Origin: Parapedobacter luteus
GTDB taxonomy: Bacteria; Bacteroidota; Bacteroidia; Sphingobacteriales; Sphingobacteriaceae
Assembly: GCF_900168055.1 (NCBI RefSeq)
Contig: NZ_FUYS01000003.1
Coordinates: 248,001 to 312,000, forward strand
Length of the DNA: 64,000 nt
Direction of reading: 5' to 3'
Position numbers and translations under genes: made by a program. How positions within the stretch are numbered: the first letter of the stretch is position 1; each line of letters starts with the position of its first letter. Shown here piece after piece: positions 16,956-22,842 of this stretch. Below the pieces are notes generated by a model. The model did not search any database. It was not told the origin of the DNA and saw only the letters and a program-made list of their open reading frames with translations.

Positions 16956-18263
16956 TCAGGAGTTCGCCAACAGGTAACTTTTAAATGCCGAAAAATCGTT
17001 ACCTAATGCCGTTATCTCTTTATTACGCCCTGCCAGTAGCTTAACCTGGTCGGGTATCGTAATGCGAGCAGCAATTTCCGGGGCGAACATGTCTGGAAAC
17101 TTACAGGGGTGCGCCGTCGACAAAAATACAGTAGCATACGAACCCGGGTACTGACGGCGATAGGCTTCTGCAGACAACCAAGCAATAGCTGTATGGGGGC
17201 ATGCCACGTAATGATACCGATCGAAAATAGTCTGGATAGCCCTACGGGTATCTGCATCGGTAAAGGTGAAAGCAGTGACTGCCTGCTTAACGAGCGCATT
17301 GTCATACCCAAATAAATCCATGATACGCACCCAATTACTTGGGTTGCCTACATCCATTGCGTTGGCTAACGTCTGTACAGACGGCCGTGGCTCAAAACGG
17401 CCGGTTTCGAGAAAGCGCGGAACCGTGTCATTCACATTCGTGGCCGCAATAAAACGCCTGACAGGCAACCCCATTTTATGCGCCAGCAGACCGGCGCCGA
17501 TATTGCCGAAGTTGCCACTGGGCACCGAAAACACCACCTCTTCCATGCCTTGCACCAACAGTTGGGCATAAGCATAAAAATAATAAAACGTCTGGGGGAT
17601 CAGTCTGGCTATGTTGATTGAATTAGCCGATGTGAGCCGGAATGCCGATTTTAACGTTTGGTCATTGAACGCTTCTTTGACCAACGCCTGGCAATCATCA
17701 AAGGTACCGTCGATCTCGATAGCCCGGATGTTTTGTCCATGGGTGGTCAGTTGCAGCTCTTGCACGGGACTTACCTTCCCTTTGGGATAGAGAATGGTAA
17801 CCCGTGTGCCCGGTACGCCCAGAAATCCCAATGCTACAGCTCCCCCCGTGTCACCCGAAGTAGCCACCAACACGTCTAATACACGATCATCACCGGCCGA
17901 GAGAAAGGCCATTGCCCTGCTCATAAAGCGAGCGCCAAAATCTTTGAAGGCCAATGAGGGACCATGGAACAATTCAAGCACCGCTAAACCGCTGTCCAAC
18001 GGACGGATGGGCGCTTCGAAGTTGATCGCATCGCTTACTATCCTACGGAGGTCTGCTTCCGGGATGTCGTCGCCAATAAGCGCCGTTGCTACAAAAAAGG
18101 CAATATCGTGTAGTGAGTACTGCGGAAGGTTCCGTATGAAATAACTGTCCAGCTGAGGAATCAACGCTGGCATATAAAGCCCTTTATCCGCAGGCAGACT
18201 GTTAAAAACCGCCTCTTTAAACGATACACGTAAGTCGCTGTTGTTTGTGCTATATAACTGCAT
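16956..18263 (-). CDS. thrC: Threonine synthase
   Basis: PLP enzyme converting O-phosphohomoserine to threonine, last step of the pathway. Motifs: the PLP lysine in HGPSLAFKDFGARFM (about residue 108), SGDTGGAVALGF for phosphate binding, and SGNFGNIGAGL. Length 435 is normal. Third gene of the operon; its start overlaps the thrB stop by 14 bp, so translation is probably coupled. Regulation follows the leader upstream of thrA. Confidence 0.97.
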   Translation of the reverse strand: MQLYSTNNSDLRVSFKEAVFNSLPADKGLYMPALIPQLDSYFIRNLPQYSLHDIAFFVATALIGDDIPEADLRRIVSDAINFEAPIRPLDSGLAVLELFHGPSLAFKDFGARFMSRAMAFLSAGDDRVLDVLVATSGDTGGAVALGFLGVPGTRVTILYPKGKVSPVQELQLTTHGQNIRAIEIDGTFDDCQALVKEAFNDQTLKSAFRLTSANSINIARLIPQTFYYFYAYAQLLVQGMEEVVFSVPSGNFGNIGAGLLAHKMGLPVRRFIAATNVNDTVPRFLETGRFEPRPSVQTLANAMDVGNPSNWVRIMDLFGYDNALVKQAVTAFTFTDADTRRAIQTIFDRYHYVACPHTAIAWLSAEAYRRQYPGSYATVFLSTAHPCKFPDMFAPEIAARITIPDQVKLLAGRNKEITALGNDFSAFKSYLLANS

Positions 18264-19257
18264 GTTTATTGGTAATTTCTTTCGGTCCTTCCATATTTAT
18301 TTTCGACATATATCCATGGCTACCGATCCCCTGCGCTGTCAGGTGTGCCTGAATAACCGAGGTGATACCGTTGGCTTGCTCCGCATTTTGCGCAAAGGCG
18401 AAGACAGACGGCCCCGAGCCAGAGATACCAAAACTCAGCGCTCCAGCGTCGATAGCCAAGCGGCGCATCTCATAAAACTCAGGGATGAGAATTGCCCGTG
18501 TAGGCTCGATAAGCACATCTTGCATACTTCGCCCAATCAGCTCGTAGTCATTGCGAAACAACCCTGCCACCAATCCGGCCACATTACCCCACTGGGTCAC
18601 CGCATCTTGGAGGGCTACTTTTGTGCGAATCATTTGCCGGGCATCGCGCGTTGGAACGTCTACATGAGGGAACACCACGGAGGCATGCAATGCAGGGGGG
18701 GCGGGAAGCGCTACCACATCTAAGGGATTATACCCTCTAATCAACGTAATGCCCCCCAACAAGGCAGGAGCCACGTTGTCCGCGTGGCCATGGCCACAAG
18801 CCAGTTCCTCACCTTCCATGGCAAAGGGCAGCAGCTCCCTCCGTGACAGTGGACTGCCTAGCAACTTGTTGACAGCATATAATCCCGCCACGGTACTTGC
18901 CGCACTTGATCCCAAACCACTACCGATTGGCATATGCTTATGCAATTCGATTTCAATCCCGATATCGCACCGCCCGATGTACTGCAAAAACGATATTACG
19001 CTTGCACTTACGGTGTTCCTCGACACCTCGCGAGGCAACCTGCCTTCATCTCCCGTTATGTTTACTAACCGCACACCCGGTTCGCCGGCTCTTCGAATGA
19101 CCACCTCATCCCCCGGTTCGTGTAATGCAAAACCCAACACATCAAAACCACAAACCATATTGGCGACGGTGGCTGGCGCAAATACATGCACCTTGTCCCG
19201 TTCCCCTGAAGCCACACCCGTTTTGGTGGTCTCTTGTTGTTCCATGATAGTTTTCAT
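18250..19257 (-). CDS. thrB: Homoserine kinase
   Basis: GHMP-fold kinase that phosphorylates homoserine with ATP. The ATP-binding loop PIGSGLGSSAASTVAGLYA is at about residues 110-130, and FGISGSGPSVFAFA is the C-terminal GHMP motif. The first residues (MKTIMEQQETTKTG) are a poorly conserved extension; a second ATG lies at 19245. About 110 bp separate it from thrA; I see no terminator in that gap. It overlaps thrC. Confidence 0.95.
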   Translation of the reverse strand: MKTIMEQQETTKTGVASGERDKVHVFAPATVANMVCGFDVLGFALHEPGDEVVIRRAGEPGVRLVNITGDEGRLPREVSRNTVSASVISFLQYIGRCDIGIEIELHKHMPIGSGLGSSAASTVAGLYAVNKLLGSPLSRRELLPFAMEGEELACGHGHADNVAPALLGGITLIRGYNPLDVVALPAPPALHASVVFPHVDVPTRDARQMIRTKVALQDAVTQWGNVAGLVAGLFRNDYELIGRSMQDVLIEPTRAILIPEFYEMRRLAIDAGALSFGISGSGPSVFAFAQNAEQANGITSVIQAHLTAQGIGSHGYMSKINMEGPKEITNKHAVI

Positions 19258-19366: not shown

Positions 19367-21814
19367 TCATGCGCCAACATTTACCAAATCCGCAAAAACA
19401 CCTGCAGCCGTGACCTCTGCCCCAGCCCCCGGCCCTTTAACCACAAGCGGCCGCTCTTTATACCTTTCGGTGGTAAACGAAATAATATTGTCGCTTCCCG
19501 AAAGTGCAAAAAAGGGATGGTTAGCATCGACCAATTCTAAAGCGATAGAAACTTGCCCCGCTTCTAACTTGCCAATATAGCGAAGCACCTTATTTTCTCG
19601 TTGAGCTTTTGCCTTCAAATCGTCAAAATACGCGTCAGCCGCTTTTAATTCATCGTAAAATTCTCCGACCGAAGCAGCTTGGATGCAGGCTTCCGGCAAT
19701 ATTGCCCCCAACTGGACATCCTCGGGTTCAAGCTTATATCCGGCATCCCGTGCCAAAATCAGCATCTTACGCATGAAATCCGTACCCTTAAGATCGTCAC
19801 GTGGATCTGGCTCTGTATAACCCAATCGTTGCGCGGTTTGGACCACATCGTGAAAGGAAGCTGTTCCGTTGAAGTTATTAAAGATATAGGATATCGTGCC
19901 TGACAATATAGCTTCCACACGTATAATCCGATCCCCACTCATCATCAAGTCCCGCAGTACACGCACGATAGGTAGTCCAGCTCCGACATTGGTTTCATAA
20001 AAAAAATCGACGCCGTGCCTGCGGGCAGTATCCTTTAACGTCTGATACTGGCTGTACTTGCCCGAGTTGGCTATCTTATTGCAAGTGACAATGGAAATGT
20101 TAGATCTGAATATGGTTTCATAATAACGGACAGGCTGCTCACTCGCCGTGTTGTCTACAAACACACAGTTTGGAAGATTCATCTGCATCATCCTTGCCAC
20201 AAACGTATCCAAATCAGCCGGCTCTCCCGATTCGTGTAATTGCACTTCCCATGTAGCTAAGTCAATTCCATCCGCATTAAAAAGCATCCTCCGTGAATTA
20301 CTAAGACCGATTATCTTTATTTCTATATCATTATTGTCCAGCAGGAAGCCATACTGCTCCTGAATCTGCCTGAATAACGTCGAACCGATGTTTCCTGTGC
20401 CAACATTGAAAACATGCAACGTTTTATTTAACTGGGCAAAGAAAGCATCATGTACAGCATTCAGTGCTTTGGCCAGATCGGTTTGGGCGATAATAACCGA
20501 GATGTTGTATTCCGAAGACCCTTGGGCAATAGCACGGACGTTAATGCCATTTCGGCCCAACGCATGAAAAAGCCGGCCTGACATACCGGGAGTCTGCTTC
20601 ATGTTCTCACCGACAATGGCTAACACAGATAACCCATTTTCGATTTCTGGATTCGACAATTTGTTTGCTTTCAACTCCAATTCAAATTCGCTCTCAATCA
20701 GCGATTTAGCACGCAGTGCATCAGCCGGGTGTATGGCAAATGTAATGCTGTGTTCGGAAGAAGACTGTGTAATCAGCACCACATTGATTTGCTCCCTTGC
20801 GAGTAGCGTGAATAACCGGCCGCTGAAGCCGGCACGGCCAACCATGCCGCTGCCCACTAAATTGATGACACTGATAGTTGGAATGGAGGAAATACCTTTG
20901 ATTGGCAGTGCCGCCTTACCGCCGTCATGCTGGATGGTCGTGCCTACGAAATCTTGATTGAACGTATTGCGGATTACAATCGGGATTTCCTTTAGAAAAG
21001 CCGGAACCATTGTTGGCGGATAAATAACCTTGGCTCCGAAATAAGATAATTCCATAGCCTCGGTGTATGACAGTATCGGCAGTGAAAATGCTTTCTTTAC
21101 AATCCGTGGATCGGCGGTAAGCATGCCATCGACATCGGTCCAGATTTCAATCGCTTCGGCATCGATGGCCGATCCGATGATTGCAGCGGTATAATCGCTG
21201 CCTCCCCTACCCAACGTGGTGACTCTTTCCTGCTCACTGGACGCAATAAAACCTGTGACAAAAAGTAAGCGTCCCGGGTTCGCCGCTACAAATGCCCGTA
21301 TAAGCTGTTCGGATAGCGCTTGATTGACGTGCGCACCTCCGAAGTGGCTGTCAGTCCGGATAAGTTGTGTTCCATCCACAAACAGCGACTCTGAAAATTG
21401 CTGCTCAGCGGCTTTACTGACCAAAAAGGTCGAGCACCGTTCCCCATAGCTCAATATCAGATCCCTGCTTTGCAGGCTTAGCTCACGCAAGCTGCAAACA
21501 CCTTGTAAAAGATCCTCCAACTCGTTGAAAAAAATCTTCAGTTTGGTCAACACCGGATTTTGGCATTTCACAGGAATCAACTGCTTGACTACCGTAAAAT
21601 GACGACCTTCGATCTCCTGTAAACCCTGAACGAAGTCCCGTCCCTCCGCGGCCTCCTCTGCAAGGTAGGCCAGCAAATTGGTTATTCCACTCATTGCCGA
21701 CAAAACAACCAATGGCCGCTCACCTGACGTTTTAGATTTTCCTACGATTTCAAGCACCGCCCGGATGCCATCAACAGAACCAACGGATGTACCGCCAAAC
21801 TTGAGTATTTTCAT
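19367..21814 (-). CDS. thrA: Bifunctional aspartokinase / homoserine dehydrogenase
   Basis: Fused enzyme catalysing the first and third steps from aspartate to homoserine. Residues 1-290: aspartokinase (MKILKFGGTSVGSVDGIRAV, VTTLGRGGSDYTAA). About 300-450: two ACT-type regulatory segments (INVVLITQSSSEHSITFAI, INVRAIAQGSSEYNISVII), the likely threonine-feedback sites. From about 460: homoserine dehydrogenase (LHVFNVGTGNIGSTLFRQI, FYETNVGAGLPIVRVLRDL, GTDFMRKMLILARDAGY). Length 815 is typical for ThrA. First structural gene of the operon, about 140 bp after a Thr-rich leader peptide and 80 bp after its terminator. Confidence 0.97.
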   Translation of the reverse strand: MKILKFGGTSVGSVDGIRAVLEIVGKSKTSGERPLVVLSAMSGITNLLAYLAEEAAEGRDFVQGLQEIEGRHFTVVKQLIPVKCQNPVLTKLKIFFNELEDLLQGVCSLRELSLQSRDLILSYGERCSTFLVSKAAEQQFSESLFVDGTQLIRTDSHFGGAHVNQALSEQLIRAFVAANPGRLLFVTGFIASSEQERVTTLGRGGSDYTAAIIGSAIDAEAIEIWTDVDGMLTADPRIVKKAFSLPILSYTEAMELSYFGAKVIYPPTMVPAFLKEIPIVIRNTFNQDFVGTTIQHDGGKAALPIKGISSIPTISVINLVGSGMVGRAGFSGRLFTLLAREQINVVLITQSSSEHSITFAIHPADALRAKSLIESEFELELKANKLSNPEIENGLSVLAIVGENMKQTPGMSGRLFHALGRNGINVRAIAQGSSEYNISVIIAQTDLAKALNAVHDAFFAQLNKTLHVFNVGTGNIGSTLFRQIQEQYGFLLDNNDIEIKIIGLSNSRRMLFNADGIDLATWEVQLHESGEPADLDTFVARMMQMNLPNCVFVDNTASEQPVRYYETIFRSNISIVTCNKIANSGKYSQYQTLKDTARRHGVDFFYETNVGAGLPIVRVLRDLMMSGDRIIRVEAILSGTISYIFNNFNGTASFHDVVQTAQRLGYTEPDPRDDLKGTDFMRKMLILARDAGYKLEPEDVQLGAILPEACIQAASVGEFYDELKAADAYFDDLKAKAQRENKVLRYIGKLEAGQVSIALELVDANHPFFALSGSDNIISFTTERYKERPLVVKGPGAGAEVTAAGVFADLVNVGA

Positions 21815-21892
21815 TTGTACGATAAAGTGTCTATAGCATTTGCATTCATTCCTTGCATAAAATCAATTGCGCATTCAAACCGCTGAAATTAA

Positions 21893-21923
21893 AAGCGCCT
21901 TCCTGTATTCGAGGAAGGCGCTT
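21893..21923 (-). terminator. thr operon attenuator terminator
   Basis: AAGCGCCTTCCT and AGGAAGGCGCTT form a perfect 12-bp stem with a 7-nt loop, followed on the minus strand by TTAATTT. It lies between the leader peptide and thrA, where it would stop transcription unless an alternative fold forms. Confidence 0.85.
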
Positions 21924-21953
21924 ATATCTATTGTCAACAATTACAACATATAA

Positions 21954-22019
21954 TCACTTCCCCCGGGTTTTCCGCCCCGTGGATGTAATGGATGTTGTAA
22001 TGGTCACGTATCTTTCCAT
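21954..22019 (-). CDS. thrL: Threonine operon leader peptide, 21 aa
   Basis: Short frame MERYVTITTSITSTGRKTRG plus a final Lys: six Thr and two Ile in 21 residues, concentrated in VTITTSITST. Thr and Ile are the residues that control the enterobacterial thr operon by ribosome stalling. Codons 7-10 (ATTACAACAT) are perfectly complementary to ATGTTGTAAT just past the stop codon, giving the 1:2 pairing expected of an attenuator, and a strong terminator follows. It is too short for usual gene finders. Homology to enterobacterial ThrL is not claimed; only the logic is the same. Confidence 0.85.
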   Translation of the reverse strand: MERYVTITTSITSTGRKTRGK

Positions 22020-22038
22020 TGTTTTATAATTTCCGCGA

Positions 22039-22069
22039 CAAAGGAAAGTTTTTATTTTCAAATTATCAA
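22039..22069 (-). promoter_or_regulatory. Candidate thr operon promoter
   Basis: Minus-strand TTG (22069-22067), 20-bp spacer, TTCCTTTG (22046-22039), one mismatch from TAnnTTTG. Transcription would begin about 15 bp before the leader ATG. Confidence 0.45.
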
Positions 22070-22248: not shown

Positions 22249-22842
22249 ATGAAGAGGAAAACATCAGTAGCGTGTATACTATTTGCTTGCATGTTTGCCA
22301 TATCGCAAGCCCAAACCTTAACCGAACAGCCGACTACAAACCCATCCGATCCGGATAATTTAGCAAAAGACTATTTTTCTCAGATAATGGGTGTTGCTGT
22401 TTCAGCGACCACGAATACAAAGCTTTACCAATTTATCTATGAATGGATAGGCACGCCTTACCGTCTGGGAGGCACCACCAAAAAAGGCGTTGACTGCTCG
22501 AAATTTGCTTACGAGCTCTACGATAAAGTTTTTAACACCACATTGGGCCACAATAGTCGTAACATCTACACACAAGTGAATCCCATCCGGAAAGAAGAAT
22601 TGAAACCCGGAGATTTGGTGTTTTTCAAAATCAGGAGCCGCAATATTACGCATGTAGGAGTTTACATTGGCGATGACAAGTTTGCCCATGCGTCTTCAAG
22701 CCGCGGCGTAATGATCAGCGATCTTAATGAAGCTTACTGGAAACGTTATTATTATAACGGCGGCCGAATGCTTACAGCGATGGCAGCTGAAAATACTGCG
22801 GATGATAAACAAGACGGCGGCCGGCAACCAGCATTAAACTAA
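22249..22842 (+). CDS. NlpC/P60 cell-wall endopeptidase, 197 aa
   Basis: Secreted C40-family peptidase that cuts stem peptides of peptidoglycan. Signal peptide at residues 1-22 (ACILFACMFAISQAQ); catalytic Cys83 in GVDCSKFAYELY; His135 in THVGVYIG; third polar residue His147 in FAHASS. Length and arrangement match Spr-like single-domain members. It stands alone after a clear promoter, divergent from the thr operon. Confidence 0.93.
   Translation: MKRKTSVACILFACMFAISQAQTLTEQPTTNPSDPDNLAKDYFSQIMGVAVSATTNTKLYQFIYEWIGTPYRLGGTTKKGVDCSKFAYELYDKVFNTTLGHNSRNIYTQVNPIRKEELKPGDLVFFKIRSRNITHVGVYIGDDKFAHASSSRGVMISDLNEAYWKRYYYNGGRMLTAMAAENTADDKQDGGRQPALN

Follow-up and report, generated by a model that had tools for sequence, protein, structure and literature searches.

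The window analysed here, a stretch of 64,000 nt, carries on its minus strand three consecutive genes that form a thrABC operon. thrA (19367..21814, start codon at 21814) encodes the bifunctional aspartokinase/homoserine dehydrogenase I (NCBIfam equivalog NF006959, 1009 bits), thrB (18250..19257) a homoserine kinase (NF002288, 373 bits) and thrC (16956..18263), which overlaps thrB, a threonine synthase (TIGR00260, 275 bits), all with scores above the cut-offs. On the far flank of the leader region lies an NlpC/P60-type gene (22249-22842, plus strand) divergent from thrA. Between these two genes we located a short Thr/Ile-rich leader ORF followed by a terminator, both on the minus strand; an earlier note on this DNA had described the two without giving the strand.

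The leader ORF has 21 codons (MERYVTITTSITSTGRKTRGK), with its ATG at 22019 and a stop codon that ends at 21954 (21954..22019, minus strand). As in thr-type attenuators, the operon is immediately preceded by a small ORF with many codons for the amino acid that the pathway makes. It contains six Thr codons, five of them inside VTITTSITST, and two Ile codons; the putative regulatory codons are Thr6 to Thr14 (22004-21978, minus strand). The best ten codons of the leader gave a Thr/Ile score of 6.2, a value that did not occur once when the region was shuffled 3000 times with dinucleotides preserved. Upstream of the ORF we found a match to the Bacteroidota-type promoter, formed by a putative -33 TTG element (22067..22069, minus strand) and a putative -7 element TTCCTTTG (22039..22046, minus strand; consensus TAnnTTTG) separated by 19 nt from the ATG of the leader. 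The whole match, TTG-N20-TTCCTTTG (22069-22039), agrees with 8 of 9 consensus positions, and congeners keep it with the same spacing and at nearly the same distance from the leader. Transcription would hence start just upstream of the leader, judging from this match. A scan for sigma-70 promoters gave weak, chance-level sites only, and the Bacteroidota pattern fits better.

The leader RNA (191 nt) folds with -59.3 kcal/mol (z = -5.4). In the minimum-free-energy fold, segment 1 (ATTACAACAT, 21992..22001, minus strand), within the Thr codons, is the 5' arm of an anti-antiterminator whose 3' arm, segment 1' (ATGTTGTAAT, 21940..21949, minus strand), lies 3' of the leader stop. Similar pairings involving Thr codons were also seen by eye in relatives. 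Segment 2 (CCGGGGGAAGTGA, 21954..21966, minus strand) comprises the last leader codons and the stop, and is the 5' arm of an antiterminator. Its partner, segment 3 (AAGCGCCTTCCTC, 21911..21923, minus strand), serves both as the 3' arm of the antiterminator and as the 5' arm of the terminator. Segment 4 (21893..21904, minus strand) closes the terminator, a 12-bp stem of -19.9 kcal/mol (21923-21893) followed by TTTTAATTT; a run of four U starts within the stem at 21894 and the remaining U-rich tail, TTAATTT, occupies 21886..21892 (minus strand). An intrinsic terminator, with its 12-bp stem and U run, is present between the leader and the first gene. The earlier note had described the 21-codon Thr/Ile frame, a perfect 10-bp pairing between leader codons and a stretch after the stop (here 22001-21992 with 21949-21940) and a 12-bp terminator stem 80 bp before thrA. 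All three are there, and the gap to the start codon is 78 nt. What that note lacked is the antiterminator that makes the leader a switch: in the window, the last leader codons CCGGGGGAAGUGA pair with CUUCCUC in the 5' arm of the terminator.

The genome groups with Parapedobacter. In order to compare relatives, we sampled the regions upstream of fused thrA genes from 80 GTDB loci, plus genus, order, class and phylum. A similar leader is present in nearly every genome of the family Sphingobacteriaceae, e.g. MSKYTTTTTIITTGDKARRK, MNTNTIITSIIITTGIKLRRK or MIYNGTIITTIITTGVKHGGR. Thr/Ile scores of at least 6 were obtained for 97% of 127 family upstream regions and for 0.16% of shuffles. Within the family leaders all four Thr codons are in use, and the third codon position is the most variable, with mainly Thr/Ile exchanges at the second and hardly any change at the first, as expected of a translated frame. 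ATG is the start codon in 113 of 126 leaders and GTG in the other 13. Of the 128 family regions submitted to a simple scan, 115 showed the terminator (90%, versus 2% in shuffles).

In most relatives segment 2 covers the last 3-5 leader codons, where a purine-rich stretch reads GGAGGAAG in most of them and CCGGGGGAAGUGA in the window. This leader end covaries with the terminator arm: GAGGGGAG goes with CTTCCCTC (locus L007), TTAGAAGA with TCTTCTAA (L077), CGGGGC with GTCCCG (L115), ATCGGGAGC with GCTCCCGAT (L233) and TGGGGG with CCCCCA (L061). In lineages with a changed segment 3 (CTTCC, TTTCC, TCCCG, CCCCC and CTTCT types), the best partner of segment 2 is mostly a segment 3 of the type found in the same leader. 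Among 13 divergent representatives, cognate 2:3 duplexes averaged -13.7 kcal/mol versus -10.7 kcal/mol, a difference reached by 2 of 100000 permutations, which is not a strict probability, the sequences being related and their shared ancestry incompletely removed. In this panel the window's own segment 3 comes only fifth among the 13 candidate partners of its segment 2, because G-rich sequences pair with many partners. The leader end is part of an antiterminator that excludes the terminator, according to both the 2:3 pairing and its covariation. From comparative data, the tracking of segment 3 by both segments 2 and 4 is what we regard as the strongest evidence for the predicted attenuator. 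The earlier note had proposed an alignment of relatives as a check; in about 125 of them both the frame rich in Thr and Ile and its start codon are retained, and compensatory changes preserve terminator and antiterminator alike.

We then folded the transcript truncated after segment 3, with the ribosome at different positions. The predicted probability of the window antiterminator was 0.86-0.90 with the ribosome on Thr6 to Thr14 if pairings in all registers between the segment 3 core and codons 15 to stop are counted (0.24 by strict register). It dropped to 0.01 at Thr18 and 0.00 at the stop codon, and was 0.04 with no ribosome, a state in which the antiterminator is predicted to be absent because the 10-bp pairing ties the Thr codons to the sequence 3' of the stop. 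Across 99 distinct leaders, the mean probability of 2:3 before segment 4 is made was 0.86 with a stalled ribosome, 0.59 with none and 0.00 with the ribosome at the stop. Even without a ribosome, the antiterminator is predicted in 66% of the distinct leaders, the window not among them; a lack of translation may hence not switch the operon off in every relative. These predictions, which ignore kinetics, yield mutually exclusive structures switched by ribosome position; folding had been proposed as a check in the earlier note, and its outcome is favourable. The predicted switching follows the logic of the enterobacterial thr leader.

Taking these data together, we consider it highly probable that the thrABC leader is a classical ribosome-mediated transcription attenuator, and the genes are very probably read only under threonine shortage, through the leader RNA switch. 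When Thr-tRNA, and probably Ile-tRNA too, is scarce, the ribosome would stall on codons Thr6-Thr14 and cover segment 1, leaving segment 2 free to pair with segment 3 once this is made. The resulting antiterminator would block the 3:4 terminator and let RNA polymerase read into thrA. With plentiful charged tRNA, the ribosome would reach the stop and cover segment 2, and segments 3 and 4 would form the U-tailed terminator, at which transcription would end. If the leader is untranslated, segment 1 would pair with 1' around segment 2, and segment 3 would again be left for the terminator. The proposal of the earlier note, that the supply of Thr- and Ile-tRNA controls the operon by ribosome stalling, thus gains support from conservation, compensatory changes, predicted switching and the position of the conserved promoter match, which is upstream of the leader and not downstream of the hairpin. 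Attenuation by a leader peptide requires transcription-translation coupling tight enough for the ribosome to steer RNA polymerase, and we infer that such coupling operates at the thr leader.

One could argue that the leader acts on translation, by hiding or opening the start region of thrA, or by means of Rho, and not by intrinsic termination. Other thr leaders of Bacteroidota, as well as the his leader of this genome, keep their regulatory codons mostly without a clear U-tailed terminator, so non-classical designs do exist in the phylum. For the leader studied here we find this improbable, since about 90% of the family retain the U-tailed terminator, which in the window stands 78 nt ahead of the thrA start codon, and the terminator arm covaries with segment 2. 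Even less probable is control of the terminator by a T-box or a metabolite-binding riboswitch with an incidental leader frame. The 5' leader is indeed long, structured and ended by an intrinsic terminator; however, Rfam gave no riboswitch or T-box match over the window, and what is conserved is an amino acid content with variable third positions, not an aptamer core. The absence of T-boxes from 7 Bacteroidetes/Chlorobi genomes in a 2008 survey (PMC2494555) also counts against this explanation. Finally, the stem is symmetric enough to score as terminator-like on both strands, but a stray stem-loop or the ordinary terminator of a neighbouring gene next to a chance Thr-rich frame can practically be dismissed: no gene ends at the hairpin because the flanking one (22249, plus strand) is transcribed away from it, and the Thr frame, the terminator and their coupling by the 2:3 pairing are conserved across the family.

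We compared this probable attenuator with known systems. Enterobacterial thr operons are controlled by attenuation with stalling on ThrL, and Bacteroidota make little use of Shine-Dalgarno-based initiation and have their own promoter type. As in the enterobacterial thrL (Rfam Thr_leader, RF00506), the leader peptide is Thr/Ile-rich, with a TTG-type end in most relatives, and mutually exclusive terminator and antiterminator precede a fused thrA-thrB-thrC operon. Unlike it, the window leader has no evident Shine-Dalgarno-like site on its 5' side, is preceded by a match to the Bacteroidota-type promoter and builds the antiterminator from purine-rich sequence at the end of the leader frame. No Rfam leader family matched the 64,000-nt window at its gathering score, and RF00506 (gathering score 55 bits) gave no match there even at E<=10. 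Relatives scored 26-40 bits with this model, all below the gathering score, and two of them align to its full length (40 and 34.5 bits). Bacteroid-trp (RF01692, cut-off 49 bits) gave no match on the thr leader.

This latter family comprises the Trp peptide leader RNAs that Weinberg et al. (2010, PMC2864571) described in Bacteroidota; like the thr leader, it belongs to this phylum and is a peptide leader RNA in front of genes for amino acid synthesis, but it has Trp codons and precedes the trp operon. The histidine RNA attenuators predicted in Firmicutes (PMC9413887), with hisS/hisZ leaders in PMC2965389, are further cases in which comparative genomics predicted attenuation by leader peptides in bacteria other than Proteobacteria, and differ in phylum and amino acid. 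For B. thetaiotaomicron, a transcriptome paper describes extended 5' UTRs whose small ORFs recall the leaders of attenuators, in passages that do not name thr (PMC7366714). Attenuation of this kind is already known, and among the Rfam leader families there is Thr_leader for Proteobacteria and a Trp leader for Bacteroidota, and none for Thr in Bacteroidota. Candidate attenuators in Bacteroidetes/Chlorobi are reportedly mentioned by Vitreschak and co-workers in an abstract of 2004. The suggestion of the earlier note that a case in Bacteroidota may be little documented fits with the lack of a Thr_leader match in the window and with our search of the open-access literature, which found no paper on a thr attenuator in this phylum. 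Such an attenuator takes a textbook system beyond its known home. Most Bacteroidota versions are missed by the Rfam leader families. Being conserved and covarying, it makes transcription-translation coupling testable in Bacteroidota, and it offers a ready-made threonine-responsive switch.

Other families of Bacteroidia present a second design of thr leader (L164, L162, L120, L189, L188 and others). In these compact leaders the series of Thr codons continues directly into a short GC hairpin, and the stop codon is located in the hairpin loop or beside it, e.g. ACTACTACCCCT-TAG-GGGTATACATTTTTACATATAATCC, often with CATAT after it, and by eye the stems vary with compensation. Their terminator-like signal is weak (39% with any score versus 2% in shuffles): a clear U-tailed terminator is lacking in most of them, and almost without exception the candidate with the highest score is the compact hairpin itself. 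The scanned representatives had no Rfam match at E<=1, and an alignment of compact leaders lost register across families. Most simply, the hairpin would be held open by the stalled ribosome itself, and it may act through termination, pausing with Rho, or translation. This class is a more unusual lead than the classical thr attenuator.

The his operon shows the reverse distribution, with a His-rich leader and a U-tailed terminator in several other families and a compact leader in Sphingobacteriaceae, this genome included. Upstream of hisG on contig C6 of this genome (locus L254), a His-rich leader reads MENIQIALIHCIHFHHRLCGDV up to its stop, and its last codons form the hairpin CATCGCC-TTTG-CGGCGATG, followed by TATGTTTCTACGTGAAG, a motif common to many Sphingobacteriaceae his leaders. 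No U-tailed terminator was found in the Sphingobacteriaceae his leader set. Perhaps, and we suggest this tentatively as a somewhat doubtful reading, one and the same operon has designs that differ by family, thr being classical in Sphingobacteriaceae and compact in several others, and his the opposite.

In other families, His-rich leaders followed by U-tailed hairpins were seen upstream of hisG (L243, L246, L250, L251, L252 and L262), and Ile/Val-rich ones upstream of ilvD (L266, L270, L273, L274 and L275); convincing leaders in the ilvD scan came only from outside Sphingobacteriaceae. From these His-rich and Ile/Val-rich leaders, leader-peptide attenuation looks common across Bacteroidota. 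Of the 21 trpE loci examined, most have a Trp-rich leader and a terminator upstream, and Bacteroid-trp (RF01692) matched 2 of 10 scanned trpE loci. The trp leader of this genome reads MLMNKFRIALWWRLDGNNVGQAGTVTCG, then the terminator. It lies upstream of trpE on contig C11 (L328) and, like that of a congener (L329), is a Trp leader (LWWR / LWWW) with the U-tailed terminator CCCCGACG...CGTCGGG; Bacteroid-trp did not match these two loci at E<=0.01 and does match L325 and L326 of another family. Regarding thr, a genome of another family (G043, locus L117) whose ThrA is 60% identical has the leader MIARAFRITGRIGMTTIMSIMGDVQSWR, with Met besides Thr/Ile codons, and the terminator CCTTCCTCC, so that added control by methionine is possible there. 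Lastly, the motif TTTCTACGTGA follows the compact hairpin in two operons, thr in family f33 (L195 and L196) and his in Sphingobacteriaceae (L254 and L310).
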